Shown here: one piece after another, positions 23,562 through 43,171 of the stretch | Position numbering within the stretch: position 1 is the stretch's first letter | Layout of the letters: every line of letters begins with the position of its first letter | Translations under genes and position numbers: made by a program | From: Elusimicrobia bacterium ADurb.Bin231 | Lineage (GTDB): Bacteria > Elusimicrobiota > UBA8919 > MWCF01 | Length of the DNA stretch: 43,171 bases | NCBI GenBank assembly: GCA_002069855.1 | Contig: MWCF01000017.1 | Location: 1-43,171 of the forward strand | Direction of reading: 5' to 3' | Notes under the pieces: model-generated | What the model was told of the DNA's origin: nothing | Databases searched by the model: none | The model's input: only the letters and a program-made list of their open reading frames with translations

Positions 23562-25229
23562 ATGAAGATTTTTAGAACGCATGCCTTGGTATGTTCCGGC
23601 GCCCAGTGTTTGTCAGCCGGAGGAAATAATTTCAAAGACGCTTTGTCTGCGGAGATAAATTCCGCTGGTCTTCAGGATGAAGTGCAGATAGTTGAAACAG
23701 GATGTATGGGATCTTGCGAGATGGGTCCTATGATGGTGGTGTATCCGGAGGGAACCGTATATATAAAACTTGTTCCTTCTGACGCCGCGGAAATAGTTAA
23801 AGAACATTTTTTAAAAGGCCGGCCGGTAAAGAGATTGATGTGGAACGCCTCCGGAAAAGAATTTCCCACATTGTCTGAAATTCCGTTTTTTGCCAAACAG
23901 ACAAAATTGGTGTTGAGAAATTGCGGGATTATTAATCCCGAAAATATTGAAGAATACATAGCTAATGACGGATATCTTGCCCTGGGGAAGGTATTGACTT
24001 CCATGAAGCCGCAAGAGGTTGTGGACGAGATAAAAAAATCCGGTTTGCGCGGTCGGGGCGGCGCGGGATTTCTTACAGGTCTTAAATGGGGGTATGTAGC
24101 GTCTCAACAGTCAGGTGATAAATACGTAATATGCAACGCGGATGAAGGAGATCCCGGAGCGTATATGGACAGATCTGTTTTGGAAAGCGATCCGCATACT
24201 CTTTTGGAAGGAATGATAATAGCCGGTTACGCAGTAGGCGCAATCAAAGGGTATATTTATGTAAGGGCTGAATATCCTTTAGCTGTAAAGAGGGTCGCTC
24301 TTGCTCTTAAGCATGCCCGGGCATTCGGTCTTTTAGGCAGCAATATTCTCAATTCGGGATTTTCTTTTGATATCGCCATAAGGATGGGAGCAGGAGCCTT
24401 TGTTTGCGGAGAGGAAACAGCTCTTATAAATTCCATAGAAGGGAAACGCGGGGAACCCAGAAAAAAGCCGCCGTATCCTTCCACAGCAGGTCTTTTCGAC
24501 AAGCCGACTCTTATAAACAATGTGGAAACTTTCGCCAATGTTCCGGTAATAATCCATAAAGGAGCGCAATTTTTCAAAAAGATAGGCACTGCGACCAGTC
24601 CCGGCACAAAGGTGTTTTCTCTCGCTGGAAAGGTTAATACTACAGGGTTGATAGAAGTTCCGCTTGGTATAACGTTAAGAGAAATAGTGTTTGATATAGG
24701 CGGCGGTATCCCTGAGGGACATAGCTTCAAAGGAGCTTTAATCGGAGGCCCTTCAGGGGGCGTTGTCCCAGCGGAGCATTTAGATATCGCGATAGATTAT
24801 GAGTCTCTGGATTCCATAGGAACAATTATGGGGTCCGGAGGTTTGATTATTATGGACGAGACAAGTTGCATGGTGGATATTGCAAAATTTTTCCTTAAGT
24901 TCACGGTGGAAGAAAGTTGCGGAAAATGCACACCATGCCGCGAGGGAACTCCGCAGATGCTTAAAATTCTTCAACGAATAACTTCAGGTGAAGGCATGCC
25001 CGGAGATATAGAAAATCTTGAACGCACAGGCAGAATAATATCCAGAACTTCCTTATGCGGGCTCGGACAGAGCGCGTCTAATCCCGTGCTTTCAACTATA
25101 AGATTTTTTAAAAACGAATATGAATCTCATATAAATGAAAAAAAATGTCCGTCTTCCGTATGCGATATGAAACCGAAAGCAATGGAGAATAAAAATGGAA
25201 AAAAAATCCGTGTTAGAAAGATTGCATGA
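23562..25229 (+). CDS. hndC: NuoF-like flavin subunit of the hydrogenase (HndC/HydB type), first copy
   Basis: A 555-residue NADH-binding flavoprotein. The N-terminal thioredoxin-like [2Fe-2S] domain has Cys11, Cys16, Cys48 and Cys52. Next come the FMN loop GRGGAGFLTGLKWG, the NADH-binding GAGAFVCGEETALINSIEG and RGEPRKKPPYP, then the [4Fe-4S] site ESCGKCTPC with the later Cys of SLCGLGQ. HydB-type subunits usually end in a two-cluster ferredoxin domain. Here the chain ends soon after INEKKCPSSVC with a basic tail, so that domain is missing. The last 35 bases overlap the second NuoE-like gene. Confidence 0.94.
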   Translation: MKIFRTHALVCSGAQCLSAGGNNFKDALSAEINSAGLQDEVQIVETGCMGSCEMGPMMVVYPEGTVYIKLVPSDAAEIVKEHFLKGRPVKRLMWNASGKEFPTLSEIPFFAKQTKLVLRNCGIINPENIEEYIANDGYLALGKVLTSMKPQEVVDEIKKSGLRGRGGAGFLTGLKWGYVASQQSGDKYVICNADEGDPGAYMDRSVLESDPHTLLEGMIIAGYAVGAIKGYIYVRAEYPLAVKRVALALKHARAFGLLGSNILNSGFSFDIAIRMGAGAFVCGEETALINSIEGKRGEPRKKPPYPSTAGLFDKPTLINNVETFANVPVIIHKGAQFFKKIGTATSPGTKVFSLAGKVNTTGLIEVPLGITLREIVFDIGGGIPEGHSFKGALIGGPSGGVVPAEHLDIAIDYESLDSIGTIMGSGGLIIMDETSCMVDIAKFFLKFTVEESCGKCTPCREGTPQMLKILQRITSGEGMPGDIENLERTGRIISRTSLCGLGQSASNPVLSTIRFFKNEYESHINEKKCPSSVCDMKPKAMENKNGKKIRVRKIA

Positions 25230-25629
25230 AACGCAGGACAAAGAAAAAGAGAAAAATTATATTTCCGAACAAAAGGCATCTGAATTGTTGAAAGAAAATT
25301 CAGATTCCCTTTCTCATATTTACGGAGTAGCGACTTTTTATACAATGTTGTCCGTTAAGCCGCGCGGCAGATATATCATAAGGATTTGCCGCAACCTTGC
25401 CTGCCATCTGGAGAATGCGGATTCCGTTGCCGAAGAACTCAAAAATCTTCTCGGCATAGGATTCGGAGAGACCACTACCGACGGCAAATTTACTCTTGAA
25501 GAAAGCAGCTGTTTGGGAATGTGCTCTGTTGCGCCTGCTATGATGATAAACGACGAACCGTACGGAAATCTTACTCCGGAAAAGGTAAAGGATATAATTG
25601 AAAGTTTAAAGGCGGGGAGTAAAAAATGA
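25195..25629 (+). CDS. NuoE-like [2Fe-2S] subunit, second copy
   Basis: A 144-residue NuoE homologue with its four cluster cysteines intact (CRNLACHL and SCLGMCSVAP) and the family motif HIYGVATFYTML. The N-terminal helical region is shorter and more charged than in the first copy. It overlaps the end of the first NuoF-like gene and is followed by a second NuoF-like gene that starts 4 bases before its stop, so NuoE and NuoF are paired again. It may form an alternative NADH or NADPH module for the same hydrogenase, or serve another enzyme. Confidence 0.9.
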   Translation: MEKKSVLERLHETQDKEKEKNYISEQKASELLKENSDSLSHIYGVATFYTMLSVKPRGRYIIRICRNLACHLENADSVAEELKNLLGIGFGETTTDGKFTLEESSCLGMCSVAPAMMINDEPYGNLTPEKVKDIIESLKAGSKK

Positions 25630-27218
25630 AATTCTTCAGAACGCATATTTTAGTGTCCAAGGACTCGAAAAGCATGTTCGCCGGCGCAGAAACGGTGGAA
25701 AAGCTTCTTGTTGAGGAAATTAAAAAACAAGGGCTCGGCGAAGAGATAAAAGTAATCAGCACAGGCAGTATAGGTTTTGAAGGAACTGGGGTTACCATTG
25801 CGGTATATCCGGACGGTATAGTTTATTCGCCTGTAACTGTTTCTGACATACCTGAAATAGTTAGCGAGCATCTGCTTAAAGGCAGAGTTGTCAAGCGTAT
25901 AGCATTTCCAATCAAAACAAGTAAAATGCCGTCTGGAGTTACATTCCCCGAAAAGGTTATAGGCATTCAAAAAAGAATCGTTCTGAAAAATGTAGGTTTT
26001 ATTAATCCGGAAAATATTGAGGAATACATAGCGCAAGACGGTTACTCAGCGCTCGCTAAATCTCTCTGCGATATGAAACCTTCGGATGTTATATCATTGA
26101 TTACAGCATCTGAATTAAGAGGCCGCGGCGGCGCCGGATATCCTACAGGTTTGAAATGGGCTGCGGCAGCAGAGGTTAAAGGGGATTGTAAATATATAAT
26201 ATGCAATGCGGATGAAGGCGAGCCAGGCACATTCAAAGACAGAGAAATAATGGAGGGAGATCCTCATACTCTTCTTGAAGGAATGGCTATAGCCGGATAT
26301 GCTGTTGGCGCTTCTGTCGGATATATATACATAAGAGGAGAATACGCGATTTCAATAAATCGTTTAAACAAGGCTATAGAAGATGCCAGATCTTACGGGT
26401 TGCTCGGTAAAAATATTCTCGGCAGCGGATTTGATTTTGAAATAGAAATAAAAAAAGGCGCAGGCGCGTATGTCTGCGGAGAAGAATCGGCATTAATAGA
26501 ATCAATTGAAGGCAGCCGCGGCGAGCCGAGAAAAAAGCCTCCGTATCCCGTTGTTTCAGGTTTATGGGCAAAACCCACAGTGGTAAATAATGTGGAAACA
26601 TTGGCTAATGTGCCCCGCATATTGGAGAACGGCGCAGAATGGTACAAGTCGTTGGGAACTGAAGGTTCAAGAGGAACTAAATTATTTTCTCTTATGGGAG
26701 ATATAAAGTGGAAGGGTGTCATAGAGATACCGTTTGGCACTCCTTTGTCAAAGATTGTAATGAACATTGCCGGAGGACTTAAAAACAACGCTAAACTTAA
26801 AGCTGTAATTTTGGGCGGAGTCTCAGGGTATTTAATAAAACCTGAAGAACTTGACATACCTGTGGATTTTAATTCTTTGGCGCGTATAGAAGCGGGTCCT
26901 GGTTCGGGTTCTATAATCGTTCTTGATGATTCCAGAGACATTGTGGATATAGTTAAAAATATAGCTGAATTTTTCAAACATGAAAGTTGCGGGAAATGCA
27001 CCCCTTGCCGTATAGGAACTGATCAGATATGCGAGATAATAGATAGATTTTTTTATGATGAGGGTTCTGAGGATGATTTGAATAAACTAATGCGTCTTTC
27101 GGAAACTATGTTCCAAACATCTTTTTGCGCGCTCGGGCAAACTGCTCCCAATATACTCCAGCAGTCATTGAAAAAATTTCGCGGCGACTGGGAACGGCAT
27201 TTTTTTAAAAGCGAATGA
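25626..27218 (+). CDS. NuoF-like flavin subunit, second copy, N-terminal cluster lost
   Basis: A 530-residue NuoF homologue. It keeps the FMN loop (GRGGAGYPTGLKWA), the nucleotide-binding GAGAYVCGEESALIESIEG, and the [4Fe-4S] site ESCGKCTPC plus SFCALGQ. The N-terminal thioredoxin-like domain aligns without gaps to that of the first copy, but its four cluster positions are Ser11, Ser16, Ser48 and Glu52. There is no C-terminal ferredoxin domain. It can thus pass electrons only through FMN and one [4Fe-4S] cluster plus its NuoE partner. The ATG overlaps the NuoE-like stop, and its own stop overlaps the epimerase start. Confidence 0.92.
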   Translation: MKFFRTHILVSKDSKSMFAGAETVEKLLVEEIKKQGLGEEIKVISTGSIGFEGTGVTIAVYPDGIVYSPVTVSDIPEIVSEHLLKGRVVKRIAFPIKTSKMPSGVTFPEKVIGIQKRIVLKNVGFINPENIEEYIAQDGYSALAKSLCDMKPSDVISLITASELRGRGGAGYPTGLKWAAAAEVKGDCKYIICNADEGEPGTFKDREIMEGDPHTLLEGMAIAGYAVGASVGYIYIRGEYAISINRLNKAIEDARSYGLLGKNILGSGFDFEIEIKKGAGAYVCGEESALIESIEGSRGEPRKKPPYPVVSGLWAKPTVVNNVETLANVPRILENGAEWYKSLGTEGSRGTKLFSLMGDIKWKGVIEIPFGTPLSKIVMNIAGGLKNNAKLKAVILGGVSGYLIKPEELDIPVDFNSLARIEAGPGSGSIIVLDDSRDIVDIVKNIAEFFKHESCGKCTPCRIGTDQICEIIDRFFYDEGSEDDLNKLMRLSETMFQTSFCALGQTAPNILQQSLKKFRGDWERHFFKSE

Positions 27219-28150
27219 AAATATTAATTACGGGTGCTACAGGTTTTATCGGAAGAAATGCGGCGCTCAGACTTTTGCGGGAAGGACATATTATATCGGT
27301 ACTGGTAAGGAATGCGTCTAAGGCGTCTTTTCTGAAATCAGCAGGCGCGCAATTAATATGCAAAGACATAACAGATAAAAATCTTTCCGATAACATAGGA
27401 ATGCGCGACTTTGACGTGATAATTCATTGCGCAGGGCTTGTGCAGAATTGCAACTATAATAAACTGTATTCTGTAAATGTTAAAGGTTCTGAAAATATCT
27501 GTCGCCTTGCGCTGGAACTCGGAGTAAAAAAACTTATTTATACCAGTTCTGTGTCTGTAATAAGCGGAAATGATAAACCCTCTCTTACAGATGATTTGCC
27601 TTACAAGGCCTCAAACCTATACGGCAAATCCAAGATGGAAGCCGAGAAAATAGTTGTTGGTTATAGACAAAAAGGATTGAGGATCGCGATATTAAGACCG
27701 TCTATGGTTTATGGAGAAAACGAACCGCATTTGACTAATTTGCTTCTAACTTTAATGAAATACAGATTGATGCCTATGCCTGGCAATGGCGCAGCTAAGT
27801 GGCATTTGGTATATATAAAAAATCTTGTTGAGGTATATTCCGCTGCTGTAAAAAACGATGCTTATTTGGATGGCACTTTTCTTGTAGCTGACGAAGAGGT
27901 TTTAACTGTTAAAGAGATATTCAAAATATTCAGCGAAAATATAGGTGGCAAAATGCCTTACTCGTTGCCGGACCCGATTACTGGATTTTTGCGTTATGTG
28001 CCTTATTTCGGAGATAAAATAAGATTTTTTCTTAAAGACAGGGTCTATGATACATCACGGCTTAGAGCAGCTGGTTGTAAGATGCCGCATAAGGCGCAGG
28101 ATGCTCTGAAATTGACTGCCAAGCACTGGATAAAAAAAAGGAGAAATTAA
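27215..28150 (+). CDS. NAD-dependent epimerase/dehydratase family protein (extended SDR)
   Basis: A 311-residue extended short-chain dehydrogenase/reductase. The dinucleotide-binding motif is ITGATGFIGRN at the start. The catalytic Ser and YxxxK are in IYTSSVSVISG and LYGKSKMEAE. Homologues act on nucleotide sugars, sterols or flavonoids; substrate is not evident. It lies inside the hydrogenase operon, overlapping the second NuoF-like gene by 4 bases (ATGA) and ending one base before HydA. This is an odd place for a sugar-type enzyme. A role with the hydrogenase is possible but unsupported. Confidence 0.85.
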   Translation: MKILITGATGFIGRNAALRLLREGHIISVLVRNASKASFLKSAGAQLICKDITDKNLSDNIGMRDFDVIIHCAGLVQNCNYNKLYSVNVKGSENICRLALELGVKKLIYTSSVSVISGNDKPSLTDDLPYKASNLYGKSKMEAEKIVVGYRQKGLRIAILRPSMVYGENEPHLTNLLLTLMKYRLMPMPGNGAAKWHLVYIKNLVEVYSAAVKNDAYLDGTFLVADEEVLTVKEIFKIFSENIGGKMPYSLPDPITGFLRYVPYFGDKIRFFLKDRVYDTSRLRAAGCKMPHKAQDALKLTAKHWIKKRRN

Positions 28151-28151
28151 T

Positions 28152-29942
28152 ATGGATGTTAACATGCAAACCGTAGAAGTAAAAATTAACGGGCAAAGTT
28201 ATAATATGAATGAAGACATGACAATCCTTGAGGCATGCGAGAGTGTGGGTATAAAAATACCGACATTGTGTTATTTGAAAGGTATTTGCGAGGAAGGTTC
28301 CTGCGGGATCTGTGTTGTTGAAGTGAAAAAGTTTAAGGCTTTACGCAGGGCTTGCATAACAAAAATTATGGCTGATATGGAGATTTTTACGAACACCCCG
28401 TCTGTACGGGAAGCAAGAAGAACCAATCTGGAATTGTTGCTTGCCAATCATCCAAAGGACTGTCTTGTATGTTCCAAAAGCGCTTCCTGCGATTTGAGAA
28501 AACTTACAGAGGATTTCGGTTTAAAAGAAAGCAGGTTTGAGAAAACCCGCGCTAAAGATTTTGAAATAGATATCAGCTCTCCTTCTATAGTCAGAGATCC
28601 CAATAAATGCATTCTTTGTCGCAGATGTGTAGAGGTATGCAGCAAAGTGCAAAAAGTAAATGCTATATGCATAGCAAACAGAGGATCAAATAGCACTGTT
28701 TCCACAAGTTTTGAAAAAGGTCTTGGCAATGTGGAATGTACAAATTGCGGGCAGTGCGTTCTTGTATGTCCCACAGGCGCTCTTACGGAAAAGGAATATA
28801 TTGAGGATGTTTGGAAAGAATTGGCTGAACCTGAAAAATTTGTTATTGTTCAGACAGCTCCTGCTGTCAGGGCGTCCATAGGAGAAGAATTCGGATTGCC
28901 AGCGGGCACTCTTGTCACAGGAAGGATGGTTGCTGCGTTAAGACGTGTTGGGTTTAAAAAGGTATTTGATACTCAGTTTTCTGCGGATTTGACTATTATG
29001 GAAGAGGGCAGTGAATTATTGCATAGGTTAAATTCGAAAGGCGTGTTTCCCATGATAACGTCCTGTTCTCCTGGGTGGATAAAATTTATAGAACACTTTT
29101 ATCCTGATCTCATAGGGCATCTATCATCATGTAAATCTCCTCAGCAGATGTTCGGAGCTGTAGCAAAAACCTATTATGCCGAAAAACTTGGTATTGATCC
29201 GCGAAAGATGGTGGTTGTTTCTATAATGCCATGCACTGCGAAAAAATTTGAAGCGCGTAGACCGGAATTTGATTCCGCTTTTAATTATTGGCAGGAAAAG
29301 GGAACTATTAAAGATATTACCGCATTTTCTGATATTGATTATGTGCTCACCACCAGAGAGGCCGCTAAAATGATAAAAGAAGGCGGTATTGATTTTATTC
29401 ATCTGAAAGATGAAGATTTTGACGCTCCTCTTGGTATGTCAAGTGGCGCTGGAGTAATATTTGCCAATACAGGCGGGGTTATGGAAGCAGCTATAAGAAC
29501 TGCATATGAGCTGGTAACAGGAAAATCATTAGAAAAATTGGAGTGCAAAAGCATAAGAGGGCTTGACGGAATAAAAACAGCAGATATTGATATAGCAGGA
29601 ACAACTATTAAGGTTGCTGTTGCGCACGGATTATCAAATGCAAGGATATTATTGGATGAGATAAAAGAAGGGAAAAGTCCTTATCACTTTATTGAGATTA
29701 TGGCTTGTCCGGGTGGATGTATTGGTGGTGGTGGCCAGCCGTATAATGCGTCGGAGTATTCCGGCACGGAATTAAGAAAGAAAAGAGCGTCTGCTATTTA
29801 CAAGGAAGATGAAGGCAAAAAGGTTCGTAAATCTCATGAAAATGAGGAGATAAAAGCGTTATATAAAGAATTTTTGGGAAAACCGCTTGGGGAAAAATCT
29901 CATAAATTGCTTCATACCAAATATACAAAAAGAGGTATATAG
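28152..29942 (+). CDS. hndD: [FeFe] hydrogenase catalytic subunit HydA (HndD type)
   Basis: A 596-residue hydrogenase of the trimeric or tetrameric bifurcating class. The N-terminal [2Fe-2S] domain has CYLKGICEEGSCGIC. The His-ligated [4Fe-4S] site is HPKDCLVCSKSASC. Two [4Fe-4S] clusters are in CILCRRCVEVC and CTNCGQCVLVC. The H-cluster motifs are TSCSPGW (Cys305), MPCTAKKFEA and MACPGGCIGGGGQP. The usual first motif is TSCCPxW; here the second Cys is Ser306. The C-terminal tail with KALYKEFLGKPLGEKSHKLL is typical of HndD. AAAGGAG precedes the ATG. It is expected to oxidise NADH and reduced ferredoxin jointly to make H2, or the reverse. Confidence 0.95.
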   Translation: MDVNMQTVEVKINGQSYNMNEDMTILEACESVGIKIPTLCYLKGICEEGSCGICVVEVKKFKALRRACITKIMADMEIFTNTPSVREARRTNLELLLANHPKDCLVCSKSASCDLRKLTEDFGLKESRFEKTRAKDFEIDISSPSIVRDPNKCILCRRCVEVCSKVQKVNAICIANRGSNSTVSTSFEKGLGNVECTNCGQCVLVCPTGALTEKEYIEDVWKELAEPEKFVIVQTAPAVRASIGEEFGLPAGTLVTGRMVAALRRVGFKKVFDTQFSADLTIMEEGSELLHRLNSKGVFPMITSCSPGWIKFIEHFYPDLIGHLSSCKSPQQMFGAVAKTYYAEKLGIDPRKMVVVSIMPCTAKKFEARRPEFDSAFNYWQEKGTIKDITAFSDIDYVLTTREAAKMIKEGGIDFIHLKDEDFDAPLGMSSGAGVIFANTGGVMEAAIRTAYELVTGKSLEKLECKSIRGLDGIKTADIDIAGTTIKVAVAHGLSNARILLDEIKEGKSPYHFIEIMACPGGCIGGGGQPYNASEYSGTELRKKRASAIYKEDEGKKVRKSHENEEIKALYKEFLGKPLGEKSHKLLHTKYTKRGI

Positions 29943-29971
29943 CAACAAAAAAAATTATTGGAGGTTTATTT

Positions 29972-30220
29972 ATGGAAGAATATGTTCTTGTTGTTTCTAT
30001 CACTGTAAAGCAGAGGAATGTAAATGCTCCTAAGGTGAACAAGGTATTGACTTCCTGCGGAGAAGTTGTGCTTGCAAGAATGGGGATACATTATGAGAAA
30101 TGTGATGTTAATATCATAACCCTGGTTACCGTAGGTGACAAAAAAGATATTCAGTCGCTTGTAAAAAAATTGACTGCAATAAAAGGGGTTAAAGCAGCAA
30201 TAACTTCACTCCCTGTATAG
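29972..30220 (+). CDS. TM1266-type iron-only hydrogenase system regulator
   Basis: An 82-residue protein of the family called iron-only hydrogenase system putative regulator, after TM1266 of Thermotoga. The core is an ACT/NikR-C-like fold with ARMGIHYEKCDVNIITLV and KLTAIKGVKAAIT. There is no DNA-binding domain, so it probably works as a ligand-binding or partner protein. TTGGAGG precedes the ATG. It lies between hydA and hydG, its standard place. Confidence 0.82.
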   Translation: MEEYVLVVSITVKQRNVNAPKVNKVLTSCGEVVLARMGIHYEKCDVNIITLVTVGDKKDIQSLVKKLTAIKGVKAAITSLPV

Positions 30221-30257
30221 ATAAATATAAAATTATCATTTGGGAAAGGACGAAAAT

Positions 30258-31724
30258 ATGATGTCTGTAATAAAAAAGCGGGAAATAGATAAGTATCTTG
30301 TGAATAAGAAATCTTTTATAGACGAAACCGAGATAAATAAAAAATTAGCAGCCAACAAAAAAAATGATTTAATAAGATTAAATGAAATTCTTAAAAAATC
30401 GCTTGCTATAGAAACATTGTCTCCTGACGAAACCGCATTTTTGCTGAATATTTCGAATAAGGATTATTGGCAAAAAATATTTGAAACAGCATCTGCTGTG
30501 AAGAAAAAGGTTTACAATAATAGGATAGTAACTTTCGCTCCGCTTTACTGCAGCAATTTGTGCGTGAATAATTGTATGTATTGCGGTTTCCGCAACAGTA
30601 ATGAAGCAGTAGTAAGGAAAAGGTTGCGTCTTGAAGAAATCAGGAAGGAAGTGCTTTGGCTTGTCGGTAAACTCGGGCATAAGCGTCTCATATCCGTTTA
30701 CGGGGAGCATCCGTCCACTGGAATAGATTATATCTGCGAAAGTTTAAGAACTATATACTCGGCAACGGTTAAGACAAAAAAAGGTTATATCGGCATAAGA
30801 AGGGTAAATGTCAATGCCGCCCCTATGTCCATATCTGATCTTAAAAAACTTCATAAAGCCGGAATAGGGACATATCAGGTATTTCAGGAAACATATCATC
30901 CTCAGATGTATAGCAAGGTGCACCCTGCTTCCACTATAAAAGGCAATTATTTGTGGCGGCTTTACTGTATGCACAGAGCTATGGAAGCAGGCATAGATGA
31001 TGTAGGCATTGGGGTATTGTTCGGACTTTATGACTGGAAGTTTGAAGTTATGGGCATTCTGTATCATGCCATAGAACTTGAAAAAAGATTTGGCATAGGT
31101 CCGCATACAGTGTCTTTTCCAAGGTTGAAACCAGCGTTTAATACGCCATTTTCAAAAGGGACAAAATATCAGGTTTCAGATGATGATTTAAAAAAATTGG
31201 TTGCTGTGATTAGATTGGCAGTTCCTTACACAGGAATGATTCTTACAGCGCGGGAACCGGAAGATGTGAGATCGAAACTTTGGCAGGTAGGCATTACACA
31301 AATGGATGCTGGCACTAAAATAGGTATAGGGGATTATAGTGATGAACACGATTTGCGCAGCAGTGACAAAGAGCAATTTTTAATAGGGGACACGAGATCT
31401 TTGGACGAGGTTATCGGAGACCTTGCCGGCAGAGGTATGATAACCTCTTTTTGTACTGCGGGTTACCGTTGCGGAAGAACCGGCAAAAACATTATGCAGC
31501 TTCTTAGAACGGGTCAAGAGGGTAAATTCTGCAAACTCAATGCCATATTGACTTTTAAAGAATGGCTGGATGATTTTGCCTGTGCGCGTACTAAATCGTT
31601 GGGCAAAAAACTGATAAAAAAAGAAATAGAGGAAGTGAAAAAAATATTTCCCAAATCTATTTACGGAAAATTTTTACAATATTACGCGGAAACGGCGAAC
31701 GGGAAAAAGGACTTGTATTTTTAA
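30258..31724 (+). CDS. hydG: [FeFe] hydrogenase maturase HydG (radical SAM tyrosine lyase)
   Basis: A 488-residue radical SAM enzyme that cleaves tyrosine to make the CO and CN ligands of the H-cluster. The radical SAM motif is CVNNCMYC (Cys102, Cys106, Cys109). The C-terminal auxiliary cluster normally uses CX2CX22C. Here Cys399 and Cys425 are in the expected places, but the middle position is Gly402, with an extra cysteine at 405 (CTAGYRC). The start is the ATG at 30258 with AAAGGA 7 bases upstream; a TTG 18 bases earlier overlaps that site. The next gene starts on the stop codon (TAATG). Confidence 0.92.
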   Translation: MMSVIKKREIDKYLVNKKSFIDETEINKKLAANKKNDLIRLNEILKKSLAIETLSPDETAFLLNISNKDYWQKIFETASAVKKKVYNNRIVTFAPLYCSNLCVNNCMYCGFRNSNEAVVRKRLRLEEIRKEVLWLVGKLGHKRLISVYGEHPSTGIDYICESLRTIYSATVKTKKGYIGIRRVNVNAAPMSISDLKKLHKAGIGTYQVFQETYHPQMYSKVHPASTIKGNYLWRLYCMHRAMEAGIDDVGIGVLFGLYDWKFEVMGILYHAIELEKRFGIGPHTVSFPRLKPAFNTPFSKGTKYQVSDDDLKKLVAVIRLAVPYTGMILTAREPEDVRSKLWQVGITQMDAGTKIGIGDYSDEHDLRSSDKEQFLIGDTRSLDEVIGDLAGRGMITSFCTAGYRCGRTGKNIMQLLRTGQEGKFCKLNAILTFKEWLDDFACARTKSLGKKLIKKEIEEVKKIFPKSIYGKFLQYYAETANGKKDLYF

Positions 31725-32950
31725 TGTTTAACACTCCCAAAGGATTAAGATTACACATAGGCATATTCGGCAGGACAAATGTAGGAAAATCATCTCTTTT
31801 GAACGCTCTGACGAGACAAAATGTTTCAATAATATCCTCTGTCCCAGGAACAACCACGGATCCTGTGGAAAAAGCTATGGAACTTTTGCCTATAGGGCCT
31901 GTTCTGTTCATAGATACTGCCGGAATAAACGATGTGAGTTCTCTCGGCGGTTTGCGACTGGATAAAACAAAAAAAATAATTGATAGGGTTGATATCGCGC
32001 TGCTCGTTACAGAGGCGGATGTTTGGGGCGAATTTGAAGAGAATCTTTTTTTTCAGTTTGTTGAAAAAAAGATTCCGGTGTTGGTTATTTTAAATAAAAC
32101 GGATATTCTTTCCATGGACGAAAAGATTGTAAAAATGTTGTCATCCAGAAAAATCCCTTATGTCGGATTGAGTTGTTCTAAAGCCGGCTGGGATGCAGCT
32201 TCGACTGTAAAAAATGAAATAATAAAAATATTACCCGATGAATTGATGCAACCCGTAAGAATAATCGCAGATCTTATTAAATCCGGGGATACAGTAGTTC
32301 TTGTTGTTCCAGTTGACAAAGAAGCTCCCAAGGGCAGGTTAATCATGCCCCAACAGCAGGCAATACGGGATATTCTGGATGCCGGGGCATACGCTTATGT
32401 TGTCAATGAAAAAACTCTTTCCGAAACAATAAAAAATCTAAGGACAAAACCGGCAATGGTTGTAACTGATTCTCAGGCATTTGAAACTGTGTTTAAGCAA
32501 ACTCCTTTAGACATACCTGTTACCAGTTTTTCTATGCTTTTTGCCAGATTCAAAGGCGATTTAGAAGAACTTGTAAAAGGAGCTTGTGAAATAGATAAAC
32601 TTCAAAACGGAGACAGTGTACTTATTGCGGAGGCATGCACTCATCATCCTATTGGCGATGATATAGGCAGGGTAAAGATTCCGGATTGGATAAGAAAAAA
32701 GCAAGCTGCGGATATTAAATTTGATATTATAAGCGGGCATGATTATCCGGAGGATTTAAGTAAATATAAATTGATTATTCATTGCGGAGCATGCACTTTG
32801 AACAGAAAAGAAATGCTATCGCGAATCATGCAATGCCGGCTGGCAAATGTTCCCATAACAAACTATGGTATAGCAATAGCCCATATCTTTGGCAATCTTA
32901 AAAGAGCGTTGGAACCATTAATAAAGAAAGATGACACAGAAAAGTCATAA
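31724..32950 (+). CDS. hydF: [FeFe] hydrogenase maturation GTPase HydF
   Basis: A 408-residue scaffold protein that carries the H-cluster precursor to HydA. The N-terminal GTPase domain has GRTNVGKSSLLN, DTAGIND and LNKTDIL. The C-terminal cluster-binding part has EACTHHPIG and IIHCGACTLN, matching CxH...HCxxC. Its ATG shares the A of the hydG stop. It is the last gene of the operon; no HydE is seen in the window. Confidence 0.95.
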   Translation: MFNTPKGLRLHIGIFGRTNVGKSSLLNALTRQNVSIISSVPGTTTDPVEKAMELLPIGPVLFIDTAGINDVSSLGGLRLDKTKKIIDRVDIALLVTEADVWGEFEENLFFQFVEKKIPVLVILNKTDILSMDEKIVKMLSSRKIPYVGLSCSKAGWDAASTVKNEIIKILPDELMQPVRIIADLIKSGDTVVLVVPVDKEAPKGRLIMPQQQAIRDILDAGAYAYVVNEKTLSETIKNLRTKPAMVVTDSQAFETVFKQTPLDIPVTSFSMLFARFKGDLEELVKGACEIDKLQNGDSVLIAEACTHHPIGDDIGRVKIPDWIRKKQAADIKFDIISGHDYPEDLSKYKLIIHCGACTLNRKEMLSRIMQCRLANVPITNYGIAIAHIFGNLKRALEPLIKKDDTEKS

Positions 32951-33009: not shown

Positions 33010-33028
33010 ATATAAATTACAAGTAAAT

Positions 33029-33102
33029 GGGCCCTTAGCTCAGTTGGTCAGAGCAGATGACTCATAATCATCGGGTCGGGGGTTCAAGTCCCTCAGGGCC
33101 CA
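33029..33102 (+). tRNA. tRNA-Ile2 (anticodon CAT, lysidine type)
   Basis: A 74-base cloverleaf. Acceptor GGGCCCT pairs with AGGGCCC, the D stem is GCTC/GAGC, and the anticodon stem GATGA/TCATC encloses CTCATAA (anticodon CAT). C4-G69, C5-G68 and C6-G67 are the pairs recognised by TilS in E. coli tRNA-Ile2, whose acceptor start is very similar. This favours Ile2 over elongator Met. CCA is not encoded. Confidence 0.85.
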
Positions 33103-33115
33103 TTATTATTTTTGT

Positions 33116-33242
33116 ATAAACGTTTATGACACAAAGGATGTGTAATTTGTGTTGCGCGGGATTCTGAAAAAAGGGGCGATGCCCCGTTGATAAGTGAAGC
33201 GAAGGGGCTTGTAATATGAGTCCATATTAGCTTCATTTTTTT
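33116..33242 (+). promoter_or_regulatory. Structured segment with intrinsic-terminator-like hairpin between tRNA-Ile2 and nth
   Basis: A run of secondary structures in 127 bases: a 12-base palindrome ATAAACGTTTAT at 33116-33127; ACACAA paired with TTGTGT further on; GGGGC-GAT-GCCCC at 33173-33185; and finally TGAAGC (33195-33200) paired with GCTTCA (33230-33235), enclosing TAATATG-AGTC-CATATTA (33212-33229), followed by seven T at 33236-33242. GCCCC at 33181-33185 could instead pair with a second GGGGC at 33204-33208. It may terminate the tRNA transcript or attenuate nth, whose ATG is at 33245. Confidence 0.55.
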
Positions 33243-33244
33243 AT

Positions 33245-33919
33245 ATGAAAGTTATTAAGAAAAAATTAGATTTAAAAGATACAGATTGTCATACATCTGA
33301 AATTCTTAAGAGATTATTTAGCAGATATAAGTACGCGCCAGCAACCGCGTTGCATTTTTCCACGCCTCTTGAAATCCTTGTCGCAACCATATTGTCCGCT
33401 CAATGTACAGATGAAAGAGTGAACAAAATAACTCCCTGGCTTTTTAAAAAATATCATACTGCGCGGGATTATGCGCAAACCCCTGTAAAGATTCTTGAGC
33501 AGGAAATCAGAACAGCCGGATTTTATCATAATAAGGCAAAAAATATAATAGGTGCGTGTCATATAATCGATAAAAAATATGCTGGAAGAGTTCCAGATAA
33601 AATGGAAGAACTTATTCAACTTCCTGGTGTCGCGCGAAAAACAGCCAATATTGTTCTTGGAAACGCCTATGGAATCGTTGTAGGTATTGCCGTGGATACC
33701 CATGTGCGAAGGTTATCTAATAGATTGGGATTTACAAAGGAAAATATTCCGGAGAAAATAGAAAAAGACCTTATGAATTTAATTGAACGAAAAAACTGGT
33801 TTAATATATCCAATATTCTTATTGAACACGGCAGAAAGGTTTGTAAAGCGAGCAAACCCGGTTGTGAAAGTTGTTTTATATCGGACATTTGTCCTAAAAT
33901 TGGGATTCCGGTCAATTAG
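33245..33919 (+). CDS. nth: Endonuclease III
   Basis: A 224-residue base-excision DNA glycosylase/AP lyase for oxidised pyrimidines. The helix-hairpin-helix with catalytic lysine is LPGVARKTANIVLGN, and the catalytic aspartate is in VAVDTHVRRLSNRLG. The [4Fe-4S] cluster is bound by C-x6-C-x2-C-x5-C near the C-terminus (CKASKPGCESCFISDIC). The only reasonable start, an ATG at 33245, comes two bases after the T-run of an apparent terminator, with no ribosome binding site. About 17 N-terminal residues extend beyond the E. coli start. Confidence 0.94.
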   Translation: MKVIKKKLDLKDTDCHTSEILKRLFSRYKYAPATALHFSTPLEILVATILSAQCTDERVNKITPWLFKKYHTARDYAQTPVKILEQEIRTAGFYHNKAKNIIGACHIIDKKYAGRVPDKMEELIQLPGVARKTANIVLGNAYGIVVGIAVDTHVRRLSNRLGFTKENIPEKIEKDLMNLIERKNWFNISNILIEHGRKVCKASKPGCESCFISDICPKIGIPVN

Positions 33920-34047
33920 TTCAATTGATTTTCAATATAAAACTCTAATAAAACCGGATATATTATTTCGCGTAAGAGCAACCCTATTTTGAATAATTTT
34001 TCACAACTTACACAAAATACTTGACATTACCTGACTTATACAAAAAC

Positions 34048-34076
34048 TTGACAAAAATAAGTAAATTAATTATAAT
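34048..34076 (+). promoter_or_regulatory. Perfect-consensus sigma70 promoter of the two-component cluster leader
   Basis: TTGACA at 34048-34053, exactly 17 bases, then TATAAT at 34071-34076. This is the best promoter in the window. A second TTGACA lies at 34021-34026 without a matching -10. Transcription would start near 34083. Confidence 0.8.
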
Positions 34077-34082
34077 AATTAT

Positions 34083-34292
34083 ATAAGCGCGATAGAAAAA
34101 GTTAGAGGGGGGATAAAAATATGATTCTGATATTTTACCTATAACGCGAAATAACAAAAAATGCCCCCGATAGTATTTATCAGCCATTGATGACAGAGGG
34201 ACGGCATAATATGAAAATATATAATCCGGAATCTTTTTTGATGGCAATATCAGTGTTTTAAAGCAGAGGTATTTTATAGCCCCTGTTTTTTT
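34083..34292 (+). ncRNA. Putative structured short transcript or leader RNA
   Basis: About 210 bases between a perfect promoter and an intrinsic-terminator-like hairpin. CGCGATAG near 34087 can pair with CTATAACGCG near 34140 with a 2-base bulge, enclosing AAAATAT-GATTCTG-ATATTTT. GGGGG near 34110 is complementary to CCCCC near 34165. Two short frames have good Shine-Dalgarno sites: MILIFYL at 34121-34144, after GAGGGGGG, and MKIYNPESFLMAISVF at 34211-34261, after AGAGGG, whose stop abuts the terminator. It matches no riboswitch class I know. It may be a small RNA, a small-peptide gene, or an attenuated leader of the receiver genes. Confidence 0.45.
34263..34292 (+). terminator. Imperfect intrinsic terminator ahead of the receiver genes
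   Basis: GCAGAGG at 34263-34269 pairs, with one A-C mismatch, with CCCCTG at 34280-34285, followed by seven T at 34286-34292. It is about 30 bases upstream of the open frame of the first receiver. Confidence 0.55.
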
Positions 34293-34321
34293 ATTGTTTC
34301 AAAATAATTTGGAATTACTAA

Positions 34322-34786
34322 TTAGGGTTACCGAAACCTAAAAGATTACTTAATATTCTTCTTGTTGAGGACAGTGAAATTGATATTCTTATTCTTAAGA
34401 GAGTTTTCGAAAGGATAAAAATACAGGACAGATTATATGTGTCGCATACAGGAGAAGATGCTCTGGATTTTGTCAATGGAATAGGAAATTACGCGTACGC
34501 GAAACCGCCTCTTCCGGATTTGATGCTGTTAGATATATTATTGCCAGGGATTGACGGGTTTGAAGTGCTTGAAAAATTGCGTTCTCCTCCGCGGCACAGA
34601 AGAATTCCGGTAATAATGCTTACTACATCATCCAGTCAGGAAGACATTGTGAAAAGTTACGACAAAGGAGCGTGTTCCTTTATAACAAAGCCGATAGATG
34701 TTAATAGATTTGTCGAAATAATGGAGCATTTTTACGAATATTGGTCTGCTGTTTCAAGAATACCTTCTACAGAGGGTGATAAATGA
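34322..34786 (+). CDS. Single-domain response regulator (Rcp1-like) without a usable start codon
   Basis: The frame open from 34322 encodes a full receiver: ILLVEDSEID with the acidic pair, LMLLDILLPGIDGFEV with the phosphoacceptor aspartate, IMLTTSSSQ and ITKPI with the conserved lysine. No ATG, GTG or TTG precedes the start of homology near 34346; the frame begins after a TAA at 34319. The first GTG, at 34439, would delete the first strand and acidic pair. So initiation is at a non-standard codon, or the gene has lost its 5' end, or the sequence has an error. A close paralogue is at 37770. The stop overlaps the next ATG. Confidence 0.7.
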   Translation, partial: LGLPKPKRLLNILLVEDSEIDILILKRVFERIKIQDRLYVSHTGEDALDFVNGIGNYAYAKPPLPDLMLLDILLPGIDGFEVLEKLRSPPRHRRIPVIMLTTSSSQEDIVKSYDKGACSFITKPIDVNRFVEIMEHFYEYWSAVSRIPSTEGDK

Positions 34787-35163
34787 AAAACGAAAAAATA
34801 TTGATTATTGACGATAACGAAGACGATCGTTTAATAATGGAAAGGTTTCTCAAGAAGGTAGGTTATAAAAATATATTTTTTGCGGACACAGCGGAAAAAG
34901 GGGTGATTCTTGCCGAAAAAGAAACCCCTGCGATAGCTCTCGTGGATATAAAACTTCCGGATTTAGACGGTATCAGAACATGTTCCATTCTGAAAACGAG
35001 GGCAAAGGTGCGCGCTGTCATTATGGTAACCGGATTAGATGATCAGGGAACAAAAAAACTTGCCGTATCCTTCGGCTCCGACGGTTATATGGTAAAGCCT
35101 GTGACAGTTAAAGAATTAAGTTTACAAATCCAAAGAATAATCGGCAAAAATTCCGGTTCCTGA
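34783..35163 (+). CDS. Single-domain response regulator
   Basis: A 126-residue receiver domain alone (CheY-like). Visible are ILIIDDNEDD with the acidic pocket, ALVDIKLPDLDG with the phosphoacceptor aspartate near residue 52, IMVTGLDDQG and YMVKPVTVKEL with the conserved lysine. There is no output domain. It overlaps the preceding receiver (ATGA). It probably relays phosphate from the cluster's kinases to unseen partners. Confidence 0.9.
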   Translation: MKNEKILIIDDNEDDRLIMERFLKKVGYKNIFFADTAEKGVILAEKETPAIALVDIKLPDLDGIRTCSILKTRAKVRAVIMVTGLDDQGTKKLAVSFGSDGYMVKPVTVKELSLQIQRIIGKNSGS

Positions 35164-35524
35164 AAAAATACTAACTATCAATAATACGCATGCCGCAATT
35201 AAGGTGAAAAAATATTTCAGTACTGTTCAATCATTTAATGCGGTTCTTTCGTATTTAATGTGGGAATATTGTGGAATAATAAGTGTATTTTAATTCAATA
35301 TTACTTTATCTGCCCGCTCCATGACCGTGCTTGTTGAGAATGTAAAACGACGGAATAGATCCTACGATAAAGGCAACAAAGTTCGGATGTTTCATTGACT
35401 TTTTTACTGATAATCAATGCGCTGTTCATTTTTATGCTTTTTACCGTATATAAATCATGCTGTTTTTCCACAATATTTAAGAAAGAACCTTTAATGCAAT
35501 GATAAGATGTAGGGAGTTAAGGAT
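35164..35524 (+). other. Intergenic region before the four-PAS kinase
   Basis: About 360 A/T-rich bases. I see no gene, convincing promoter or terminator in it. A TTGACT at 35395-35400 has no -10 hexamer at the right spacing. The kinase's ribosome binding site (AAGGA) is at the very end. Confidence 0.4.
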
Positions 35525-37769: not shown

Positions 37770-38243
37770 ATGAAAAACGCGCGCAATGCGGATTTGAACA
37801 AAAAAGTGTCAATGATTGATATTCTGGTGGTTGAAGACAATGAAGATGATATCAGAATATTGGAAAAGGTATTTGAAAATATGAAGCTTCTGAATATCAT
37901 ATCCGTGGTTAGAAACGGTCAGGAAGCTCTTGATTATATTTATCATTTGGGAAAATACGCCTTTTCCGGCAACCCTACGCCCGGGCTGATTCTTTTGGAC
38001 ATTAGAATGCCGATTATGGACGGTTTTGAAGTGCTTGCCAAACTTAAATCAGATCCGGAACACAGGAAAATACCCGTGATAATTTTAACCACTTCCGACA
38101 GAGAAGAGGATATAGCAAAGAGTTACGAAAACGGCGCCTGTTCTTTTGTAACCAAACCTGTTAGCTTTTTTGATTTTATCAAGATTATGGAAAGATTTGA
38201 AATTTATTGGACTTTAGTGTCGAAAATTCCGGAGGCTAAATAG
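37770..38243 (+). CDS. Single-domain response regulator, Rcp1-like
   Basis: A 157-residue receiver of the Rcp1 type, the partner class of phytochrome-like kinases. Motifs: ILVVEDNEDD, LILLDIRMPIMDGFEV with the phosphoacceptor aspartate, VIILTTSDREED, CSFVTKPVSF with the lysine. GGGGAG precedes the ATG. It is a paralogue of the receiver at 34322, as shown by the shared GFEVL, EDI-KSY and GACSF--KP blocks. It is probably the phosphate acceptor of the kinase just upstream. Confidence 0.92.
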   Translation: MKNARNADLNKKVSMIDILVVEDNEDDIRILEKVFENMKLLNIISVVRNGQEALDYIYHLGKYAFSGNPTPGLILLDIRMPIMDGFEVLAKLKSDPEHRKIPVIILTTSDREEDIAKSYENGACSFVTKPVSFFDFIKIMERFEIYWTLVSKIPEAK

Positions 38244-40020: not shown

Positions 40021-40048
40021 TTGACAAAAACGCAATTATAATTATAAT
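40021..40048 (+). promoter_or_regulatory. Promoter of the type III CRISPR-cas operon
   Basis: TTGACA at 40021-40026, 16 bases, then a perfect TATAAT at 40043-40048. Transcription would start about 30 bases before the first cas6 ATG. Confidence 0.7.
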
Positions 40049-40086: not shown

Positions 40087-41040
40087 ATGAAAAAATATTT
40101 AAATAATCAACTGAACTATTTGACAATGAATAAATATGTAATAGTAATAACCGCGCAAGAGGATATTTTTCTGCCGGCATACAAAGGCTCAACATTCAGA
40201 GGCGGTTTCGGTAATGCTTTTAAAAAAATATGCTGCATTCAAAGACATTCTGAATGTGTTAAATGTATATTGCGCGATAAATGCGCTTATTCCTTTATTT
40301 TTGAAAGTTCGCCTTTGTCGGATTCCCAGAAATTAAAAAATCTTGAAGAAATACCCAGACCTTTCGTTATAGAACCACCGTTAGCAAAAGAAACAAAATA
40401 TCATGCCGGCGATATACTTAAATTTGGACTTATTTTGTTTGGCAAAGCAGTGGAATTTTTGCCGTATATGATTTATACATTTGCTGAACTTGGGAAAATA
40501 GGAATAGGAAAAGGAAGAGGCAAGTTTGAGTTAAAAGAAGTATTAGACATTACCGGTAAAGTTATTTATGACTCCCAAACAGGTGTATTGAAAAATACTA
40601 TAAAAGAAGCCATTTTAAGCGATAGTGAAGAATCTTGCCTTTACAATTCATTAAAAATAAATTTTCTTACTCCAACACGGATTAAATTTAATGGTCATTA
40701 TACATCTAATCCAGAGTTTCATATTCTATTCAGAACCCTTCTGCGCCGGATTTCAAATCTTATGTATTTCTACTGTGGCAAATCACTTGATATAAACTTT
40801 AAAGAAACAATCTCTCAATCCGAAAGAATAAAAATAAAAAATATAAATGTAAAATGGCACGATTGGGAAAGATATTCTTCAAGACAGAACACAAGAATGT
40901 CTCTTGGCGGATTTGTTGGAGAAGCCGAATACTCGGGAGATATTATGCCGTTTATGCCGTTTTTACGCCTTGGCGAATACACCCACATAGGCAAAAACTG
41001 TACCTTCGGTCTGGGAAAATATGAGATAGGGAAAAATTAA
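40087..41040 (+). CDS. cas6: CRISPR pre-crRNA processing endoribonuclease Cas6
   Basis: A 317-residue RAMP-fold Cas6. The N-terminal block AYKGSTFRGGFGNAFKKICC with a nearby cysteine cluster (CVKCILRDKC) is typical of this Cas6 subfamily. The C-terminal glycine-rich loop is GKNCTFGLGKYEI. The protein cleaves the CRISPR repeat RNA to release crRNAs. The ATG at 40087 gives 13 residues more than the ATG at 40126, which better matches family starts; neither has a clear ribosome binding site. cas10 follows after one base. Confidence 0.88.
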   Translation: MKKYLNNQLNYLTMNKYVIVITAQEDIFLPAYKGSTFRGGFGNAFKKICCIQRHSECVKCILRDKCAYSFIFESSPLSDSQKLKNLEEIPRPFVIEPPLAKETKYHAGDILKFGLILFGKAVEFLPYMIYTFAELGKIGIGKGRGKFELKEVLDITGKVIYDSQTGVLKNTIKEAILSDSEESCLYNSLKINFLTPTRIKFNGHYTSNPEFHILFRTLLRRISNLMYFYCGKSLDINFKETISQSERIKIKNINVKWHDWERYSSRQNTRMSLGGFVGEAEYSGDIMPFMPFLRLGEYTHIGKNCTFGLGKYEIGKN

Positions 41041-41041
41041 A

Positions 41042-43171
41042 ATGATTGAAGAAACCACTTATAAAATAGCAATTGCCGGTTTTTTACATGATATAGGTAA
41101 GTTTGCCGAACGGGCAAAAATCGATATTGAACAAGATTTCTTAGATTCTGCTATTACACAATATTGTCCAAAGTATCAAAACAGAAATACACATATTCAT
41201 TCGGCTTACACAGCGGCTTTTATTAACCACATAGAAAAGCTTTTGCCAAAGCAATTTAATAAAGGCAATTGGGGATTAAGTGATGATTTTATGAACCTTG
41301 CCGCCGGCCACCATAAACCCGAAACCACCTTGCAATGGGTTATTGCCATTGCCGACAGGGTTAGCAGTGGTTTTGAACGCGATGAATTTGAAGAATATAA
41401 TAAAGAGATTGCCGTCAAAAATTATAAAAAGACCAGATTATTAACTATTTTTGAACAAATTTCTACTGATGTAGAACGGAAGCCGGATAATCTGGAATCC
41501 CTCAAATATAGGTATTCATTACGAGAACTTTCTCCCCACAATGTTTTTCCAAATGATGAGGCAAGTACCAGGCCAATAGACAGTGGATCTGCAACAAAAG
41601 AATACAAGCAACTATTTGACAATTTTATATATGCACTTGAAAACTTAAAACACAAGGACAATATTCCTTTATGGTTTGAACATTTTGATTCTCTTTTTAT
41701 GATTTATGCTTCGCATATTCCAGCCGCGACTGTAGGCAATGTGATTCCTGATGTATCTCTTTATGACCACTCAAAAATGACTGCTGCTATAGCTACTGCC
41801 ATTTATTTGTATCACAAGGATAATTTAGAAACAGAAAAGATTAAGGAATATAACGATAATAAATTTTTGATAATTACAGGTGATTTTTATGGTATTCAGG
41901 ATTTTATTTTTGCCGAAGGAGGCAGCACCAATAAATCAGCGGCAAAATTACTGCGGGGCAGGTCGTTTGCTGTTTCTCTTATCGCGGAATTAGCCGCGGA
42001 TATGCTCTGCCGTGAGATTGGTTTACCTCACACCTCCGTTATTTTAAATGCTGCTGGTAAATTTACAATTCTTGCACCGAATACCGAAGGGACCAGAGTT
42101 AAAATTAAAGAAGTTGAAAATAAAATAAACGAATGGCTTATAAAATGGTTCTACGGTGAAACATCTGTAGGTATATCTTCTATAGAGGCTTCCTGTAATG
42201 ATTTTGTTTATAAAAAATTTCCTAATTTATGGGAGCATTTATCAAAAATAACAGAGCAGAAAAAATACAATAAAATAGACCTTCAGAAATACGGTGGTTC
42301 AGTTAATGATTATCTTAATACCTTTGATAATACCCTGATATGCCCTTTCTGCAGCAAAAGGCCATCCAATAAAGAATCTGAAAACGACAAATTTTTGAGT
42401 AAAGATGTCAAATCTGCCTGTAAAATATGTCGTGACCATATTTATTTAGGCGCTAATTTAGTTAAGACAAGTAAAATTGCCGTTACTACAATTGATGCTG
42501 ATATTCACGGTGATAAACTTCTTGAACCGATTTTCGGAGAATATCAGGTCTCGCTGGATGTTACCGGCAAACTATCTGAACTTGCCAATGCCGGCACTCT
42601 CCTGAAATACTGGGATATTTCCATCTCATCCGAAGGCGAAATCAGCAAGGATATTACTGCTAAATTCCTGAATGGTTATGTGCCGAAATACACTAAAGAA
42701 GACGATGAAAATGATATGCGTTTAATTGCCGGCAGAAAAAGTGAACAAACTAAATTGGAACTTATAGAAATGATTAATGAGGGTAATCCTAAAATCTTTA
42801 GCCATATTGCCCAGAAGTCGTTAAAACAACTGGAAAATAAACCAGACAAATTCTCCGGTATTGCAGCATTAGGAATCTTAAAAGCTGATGTGGATCATTT
42901 AGGACTAATCTTTGCCTGCGGACTGAAAAGGCAGAACATCTCCCGTCTGGCTACTTTAAGCCGTCAGATGAACGGGTTCTTTACTATTTACTTGCCATAT
43001 ATCCTAAAGACCAAAGAGGCATTCAAGGATATTTATACGGTCTTTGCCGGCGGTGATGACCTGTTCCTGATTGGTCCGTGGAACAGGATTATTGAATTTG
43101 CTTCATTCCTGCAAAAGTCATTTCAGAAATATGTCTGCGGAAATACGGGTATAACCATTTCAGCCGGGATA
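41042..43171 (+). CDS. cas10: Type III CRISPR Cas10 (Csm1-like), 3' end beyond the window
   Basis: The first 710 codons of Cas10, the large subunit of the type III interference complex. The N-terminal HD nuclease motif is GFLHDIGKFAER near residue 14. The first palm/cyclase-like domain starts near GDFYGIQDFIF, residue 280. A four-cysteine zinc site follows (CPFC and CKIC). The GGDD active site for cyclic oligoadenylate synthesis is in VFAGGDDLFL near residue 672. The Csm1-like order, with zinc site between palm domains, suggests type III-A. Both HD and GGDD are intact. The frame runs open to the last base. Confidence 0.92.
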   Translation, partial: MIEETTYKIAIAGFLHDIGKFAERAKIDIEQDFLDSAITQYCPKYQNRNTHIHSAYTAAFINHIEKLLPKQFNKGNWGLSDDFMNLAAGHHKPETTLQWVIAIADRVSSGFERDEFEEYNKEIAVKNYKKTRLLTIFEQISTDVERKPDNLESLKYRYSLRELSPHNVFPNDEASTRPIDSGSATKEYKQLFDNFIYALENLKHKDNIPLWFEHFDSLFMIYASHIPAATVGNVIPDVSLYDHSKMTAAIATAIYLYHKDNLETEKIKEYNDNKFLIITGDFYGIQDFIFAEGGSTNKSAAKLLRGRSFAVSLIAELAADMLCREIGLPHTSVILNAAGKFTILAPNTEGTRVKIKEVENKINEWLIKWFYGETSVGISSIEASCNDFVYKKFPNLWEHLSKITEQKKYNKIDLQKYGGSVNDYLNTFDNTLICPFCSKRPSNKESENDKFLSKDVKSACKICRDHIYLGANLVKTSKIAVTTIDADIHGDKLLEPIFGEYQVSLDVTGKLSELANAGTLLKYWDISISSEGEISKDITAKFLNGYVPKYTKEDDENDMRLIAGRKSEQTKLELIEMINEGNPKIFSHIAQKSLKQLENKPDKFSGIAALGILKADVDHLGLIFACGLKRQNISRLATLSRQMNGFFTIYLPYILKTKEAFKDIYTVFAGGDDLFLIGPWNRIIEFASFLQKSFQKYVCGNTGITISAGI

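Follow-up and report, generated by a model that had tools for sequence, protein, structure and literature searches.

Attenuators of the trp and tna leader types carry an intrinsic terminator in the 5' leader. The segment described here, positions 34048-34292 on the plus strand of a 43,171-nucleotide stretch of Elusimicrobia bacterium ADurb.Bin231 (the whole stretch is called the window below), has a perfect promoter of the form TTGACA-17-TATAAT, then an AT-rich stretch of about 210 nt that holds two tiny frames, and finally a hairpin followed by seven T residues. It occupies the intergenic space between nth (endonuclease III, 33245-33919) and a row of genes for receivers and histidine kinases.

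A second group of described systems, the Mutator-type transposons, became relevant to this locus through its upstream side. According to the survey of Guerillot et al. 2014 (PMC3942029), TnGBS/ISLre2 elements (p-MULT 3) insert upstream of sigmaA promoters at 15-17 bases from the -35 box with a mode of 16, the ISKra4 group of p-MULT 4 also inserts upstream of sigmaA promoters, and IS256 (p-MULT 1) has no promoter enrichment, its insertion being described as likely random. The authors link the choice of promoters to a signature in the transposase sequence. A report of promoter targeting in IS256 was not found in our limited search of the open-access literature, so that such targeting by IS256-family elements is apparently unreported so far, which is not the same as proven new. 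From our analysis we propose, with a probability of roughly 70%, that a clade of IS256-family elements, found in this phylum and in one Omnitrophota example, inserts in either orientation upstream of sigma70 -35 boxes and keeps a constant distance from them (mode 16 bp). On the same view, relics of its ends point to true promoters in the genomes of uncultured organisms, that at 34048 among them, and the RNA that starts there may be a leader that is new and specific to this lineage.

The promoter and the transposon relic

The -35 box TTGACA (34048-34053) and the -10 box TATAAT (34071-34076) lie on the plus strand with a spacer of 17 nt, which would place the start of transcription near 34083. 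The claim of a perfect sigma70 promoter, made in the preliminary description of this DNA, holds against chance: when the intergenic region was shuffled 20,000 times by dinucleotides, a perfect pair with a spacer of 16-18 nt arose on this strand in 19 cases, and perfect sites with the 17-nt spacer number 34 in the whole genome as against 2 for the pattern read backwards, many of the 34 standing before protein or tRNA genes. Weaker matches (9 of 12 positions) are as frequent here as in the shuffles. Elsewhere in the window, at 40021, a perfect promoter also stands upstream of a Cas6 gene (Pfam), with which the region 40087-43171 begins; it is followed by a long frame, which we took, by eye only, to be the Cas10/Csm1 gene of type III CRISPR.

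The preliminary description overlooked what lies directly upstream of the promoter. The first clue came from comparison of the upstream side with other loci, in which positions 33974-34031 turned out to be repeated. This stretch (plus strand, certain for 33980-34031) is the relic of a right end of an IS256-family element, with the last codons of the transposase (...LTQNT*) and a repeat ending TTGACATTACC. Over 61 nt it is 93% identical to the copy C97 of the same genome (G000), and further copies are present in that genome and in the genomes G004 and G007. The copy C97 runs upstream into a transposase frame, another copy of the same genome (C58) is truncated near the same point as the relic in the window, and a complete copy in G004 (C28) encodes a transposase of 409 residues and possesses imperfect terminal repeats (GATAATGT... 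and GGTAGTGT...) and a 9-bp target duplication, GCAACAAAT; the target duplication of the element in G027 is GACGATCGG. These copies refute another reading that we considered, of 33974-34031 as an activator site common to several promoters, since they enter transposase frames, and the complete copy with its terminal repeats and target duplication contradicts it as well.

The transposase of the full-length relative matches PF00872 (Transposase_mut) in Pfam with 286 bits and the NCBIfam model NF033543 (transpos_IS256) with 309 bits against a cut-off of 150. Its other NCBIfam matches are weak ones to ISH6, IS1249 and IS6 only, none is to ISLre2 or ISKra4, and the IS256 model is the only one in NCBIfam whose cut-off is passed. 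Judged by these profile matches the element belongs to the IS256 family, the copy in the window holding the last codons only; insertion without sequence preference is a behaviour reported for IS256 and not a criterion of membership in the family. No relatives of the transposase were found on plasmids at E 1e-60. Between the end of the relic and the -35 box there are 16 nt (34032-34047, plus strand), the first nine of which (TGACTTATA) would be the target duplication; a second copy of this putative duplication is not present in the window.

Fixed spacing between transposon ends and promoters

Nineteen elements with readable ends made up the set in which the distance to promoters was analysed: the right-end junctions of this very element, 12 in number, in G004, G007 and its own genome; six relatives, 53-57% identical, from other families of the phylum; and one from an Omnitrophota genome (43%). 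A promoter was counted when a -35 and a -10 box, together matching at 9 or more of the 12 positions, began 15-17 nt outside an end. Fifteen of the 19 elements have such a promoter, 12 of them at 16 nt, two at 17 and one at 15, and every other bin of three offsets between 0 and 23 holds at most three elements; with shuffled flanks (2000 trials) the mean was 0.43 and the maximum 4, as against the 15 observed. The relic in the window stops exactly 16 nt short of the -35 box at 34048.

The promoter is outside the left end in G205, G027 and G346, so that both orientations occur, and no two flanking sequences are alike, so that each element is an insertion of its own. Of the four exceptions, three have a single readable flank, and the fourth, G061, has a TATAAT about where it would be expected, without a good -35 box. 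We had noticed the pattern in the first copies before putting the set together; the six relatives from the phylum and the Omnitrophota case, being found later by protein search, provide a more independent test, and five of these seven fit the spacing. For remote IS256 relatives (26-35% identity) the ends found automatically lacked precision and were kept out of the evidence.

The transposon end 16 nt upstream is an independent mark of 34048 as a true promoter. In the reading that we prefer, the promoter predates the mobile element, an IS256-family element of the promoter-targeting clade landed upstream of the -35 box at 34048, and all of it except the last ~58 bp was later lost.

Terminator, leader body and tiny frames

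At the other end of the segment, an intrinsic terminator on the plus strand (34260-34292) consists of a hairpin at 34260-34289 of -9.6 kcal/mol, with computed pair probabilities of 0.68-1.0, and a T7 run at 34286-34292. The hairpin and T-run described earlier are thus present, and beyond chance: 2 of 400 shuffles had a hairpin as stable as this one ahead of a T-run as dense. The stem contains an A.C mismatch, and a generic terminator scan left the hairpin unlisted. With its two ends so defined, a discrete transcription unit, composed of a promoter, ~210 nt and a terminator, is well supported.

The body between them (34085-34258, plus strand) is known from its computed fold. It was described as structured, and the stems are indeed there: a closing stem of 34085-34094 with 34248-34258 (pair probabilities 0.67-1.0), a stem of the G-run and the C-run, 34107-34111 with 34164-34168 (~0.94), and an inner hairpin of 34183-34190 with 34238-34245 (0.83-1.0). 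The fold as a whole, however, is only marginally better than that of shuffles (-43.9 kcal/mol versus a mean of -37.8, z = -1.57, with 14 of 200 shuffles equally good).

The two tiny frames led by Shine-Dalgarno-like sequences are likewise both present on the plus strand, but marginal against chance. The first (34121-34144) encodes seven residues, MILIFYL, after the SD-like GAGGGGGG, and the second (34211-34261) 16 residues, MKIYNPESFLMAISVF, after an SD-like AGAGGG; at least two SD-led tiny frames were found in 232 of 5000 shuffles (~5%), and a Pfam search gave no support for the second. The stop codon of the second frame (34259-34261) abuts the terminator stem, so that, from the anatomy alone, a ribosome there could block the stem. 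In the computed fold the terminator and the leader stems form together, with no clear alternative pairing or antiterminator.

The modest z of the whole fold and the ordinary frequency of the 9-of-12 promoter matches are what one would expect if promoter-like and terminator-like sequences had met by chance in AT-rich DNA and no transcript were made. We consider this very improbable, given the perfect promoter far above its control, the rarity of such a terminator in shuffles, and a transposon end at the distance of 16 nt, with 14 other elements likewise placed before promoters.

Searches for relatives of the transcript

The genomes compared were 340 others of the phylum, among them eight order-mates and none from the same family. 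Blastn of the transcript against the 341 genomes of the phylum returned the transcript itself and short chance matches only, and a separate query that included the promoter matched promoter-like stretches. A covariance model, based on this one sequence with its predicted fold, recovered nothing but the transcript in the order (nine genomes, its own and the eight order-mates) apart from two outside matches. The better of these, in G007 (18.9 bits, E 0.05), was rejected as chance because its start falls within the 3' end of an open reading frame and many of the pairs are broken; the other is weaker still (E 0.6). The covariance search in related genomes that the preliminary description had called for thus yielded no homologue of the body in the order, and none was found when the search covered 28 sources. 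Plasmid and phage collections gave short AT-rich matches only.

The earlier statement that no known riboswitch or small RNA class fits the segment was upheld by Rfam, which has no match at 34048-34292 either at gathering thresholds or in a relaxed scan. The 6S RNA (RF00013), which the segment resembles in its length and its closing stem and from which it differs in having no RF00013 match, was ruled out; the genome's own 6S RNA is located at C33:3370-3526 (55.1 bits).

If the unit were a small RNA of ~210 nt standing on its own, or a gene for a small peptide, and had no part in the receiver operon, this would account for its own promoter and terminator, its closing stem and its two SD-led tiny frames. 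The lack of a homologue in the phylum and of an Rfam match, together with tiny frames at the ~5% chance level, the second of them without Pfam support, makes this reading improbable in our opinion.

The receiver operon and the neighbourhood

Downstream of the terminator, on the plus strand, there are two receiver genes (both PF00072), at 34322-34786 and 34783-35163, the start of the second overlapping the stop of the first. The position of the segment just before the receiver genes was described correctly; the first receiver frame, however, has no ATG, GTG or TTG start, none of the three codons occurring in the stretch (34319-34355) that leads from an in-frame TAA at 34319 to the receiver domain. 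Its paralogue at 37770 has an ATG, and the second receiver gene and the kinase genes are intact. The missing start may be a base error of the assembly, an unusual start or a sign of decay. In any case, a first gene without a normal start codon weakens the idea of an attenuator and makes expression of that gene from the leader doubtful. No comparable promoter stands between the terminator and the first receiver gene, so that transcription of the operon probably begins from the promoter at 34048 and passes the terminator.

On the side of nth, a tRNA-Met gene followed by nth (33028-33919) is an order conserved in relatives. In each of the three relatives whose sequence past nth was read, a tRNA-Val gene comes after nth; it is missing there in the window, which indicates a neighbourhood specific to this lineage. 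A search for conserved synteny after nth gave nothing to align, since the tRNA-Val occupies the site in those three relatives. A degraded gene in the region was also considered and rejected, as the sole strong tblastx match to the loci fetched is the transposon end; a minus-strand frame at 34008-34247 had zero matches in a Pfam search. Further upstream (23562-32950) lies a gene cluster for a group A6 [FeFe] hydrogenase that depends on NADH; it includes two NuoF-like subunits, and hydG and hydF for maturation.

Beyond the receiver genes there is a MITE-like element of ~248 bp (35242-35489) with terminal repeats GGTTCTTTC/GAAAGAACC, flanked on both sides by the 8-bp duplication TTTAATGC and having 18 matches in its own genome, several at 97-99% identity. 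On the contig C2 (L153 1732-1767) the same MITE adjoins the last 19 bp of an IS256-type end, and a promoter-like TTGACA is again 16 nt beyond that end.

A transposon relic on one side of the segment and a many-copy MITE on the other indicate that mobile elements have been active here, and one may suppose that the promoter is real, that the gene formerly downstream of it was lost or moved by rearrangement, and that what is left is a short terminated transcript without a selected function. The neighbourhood after nth, different from that in relatives, the body without a homologue and the first receiver gene without a start codon would agree with such a by-product. A useless terminator and confidently paired stems would be expected to decay, however, and the second receiver gene and the kinase genes are intact and need a promoter; we regard this explanation as rather unlikely, though it ranks next after the one that we prefer.

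Our tentative preference, held at somewhat less than even odds, is for a 5' leader, specific to this lineage, that belongs to the receiver/histidine-kinase operon and whose terminator passes only a part of the transcripts and acts as a simple or a regulated attenuator. Transcription from the sigma70 promoter would start near 34083 and proceed through a leader of ~210 nt ending in the intrinsic terminator, which would let a fraction of the transcripts into the operon. That the RNA is a leader rather than a free small RNA is our inference, and so would be a regulated read-through and any role of the tiny frames or the stems. The observation from which this enquiry started is confirmed in part and largely right, and its interpretation is partly supported: the discrete unit is backed by the promoter and terminator statistics and by the relic 16 nt upstream, but the suggested roles of regulatory RNA, peptide gene or attenuator have no comparative support.

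Comparison with known systems

The arrangement of the locus, a promoter, tiny frames, a terminator and then an operon, is that of the trp/tna-type attenuators. It differs from them in having no established antiterminator, no leader peptide rich in an amino acid and no conservation, and in a first gene without a normal start codon. Little can be claimed for the transcript, and it is the transposon end that matters more.

The clade to which this end belongs is like the IS256 family in its transposase and, in complete relatives, in the terminal inverted repeats and the 9-bp target duplication, within the 8-9 bp of the family, and it is unlike IS256 as reported, with its random insertion, in that 15 of its 19 elements lie 15-17 nt upstream of a promoter. 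In inserting upstream of promoters, here at 15-17 bp from the -35 box, it resembles TnGBS/ISLre2 and ISKra4, from which it is separated by a transposase of the IS256 family. The same 16-bp spacing in the IS256 family would mean that the trait either arose again or is older and wider than thought. The clade offers a concrete test of how such transposases find promoters, by the sequence or shape of DNA or by contact with RNA polymerase or sigma, and its ends may serve as natural marks of promoters in uncultured phyla that need no transcript data.
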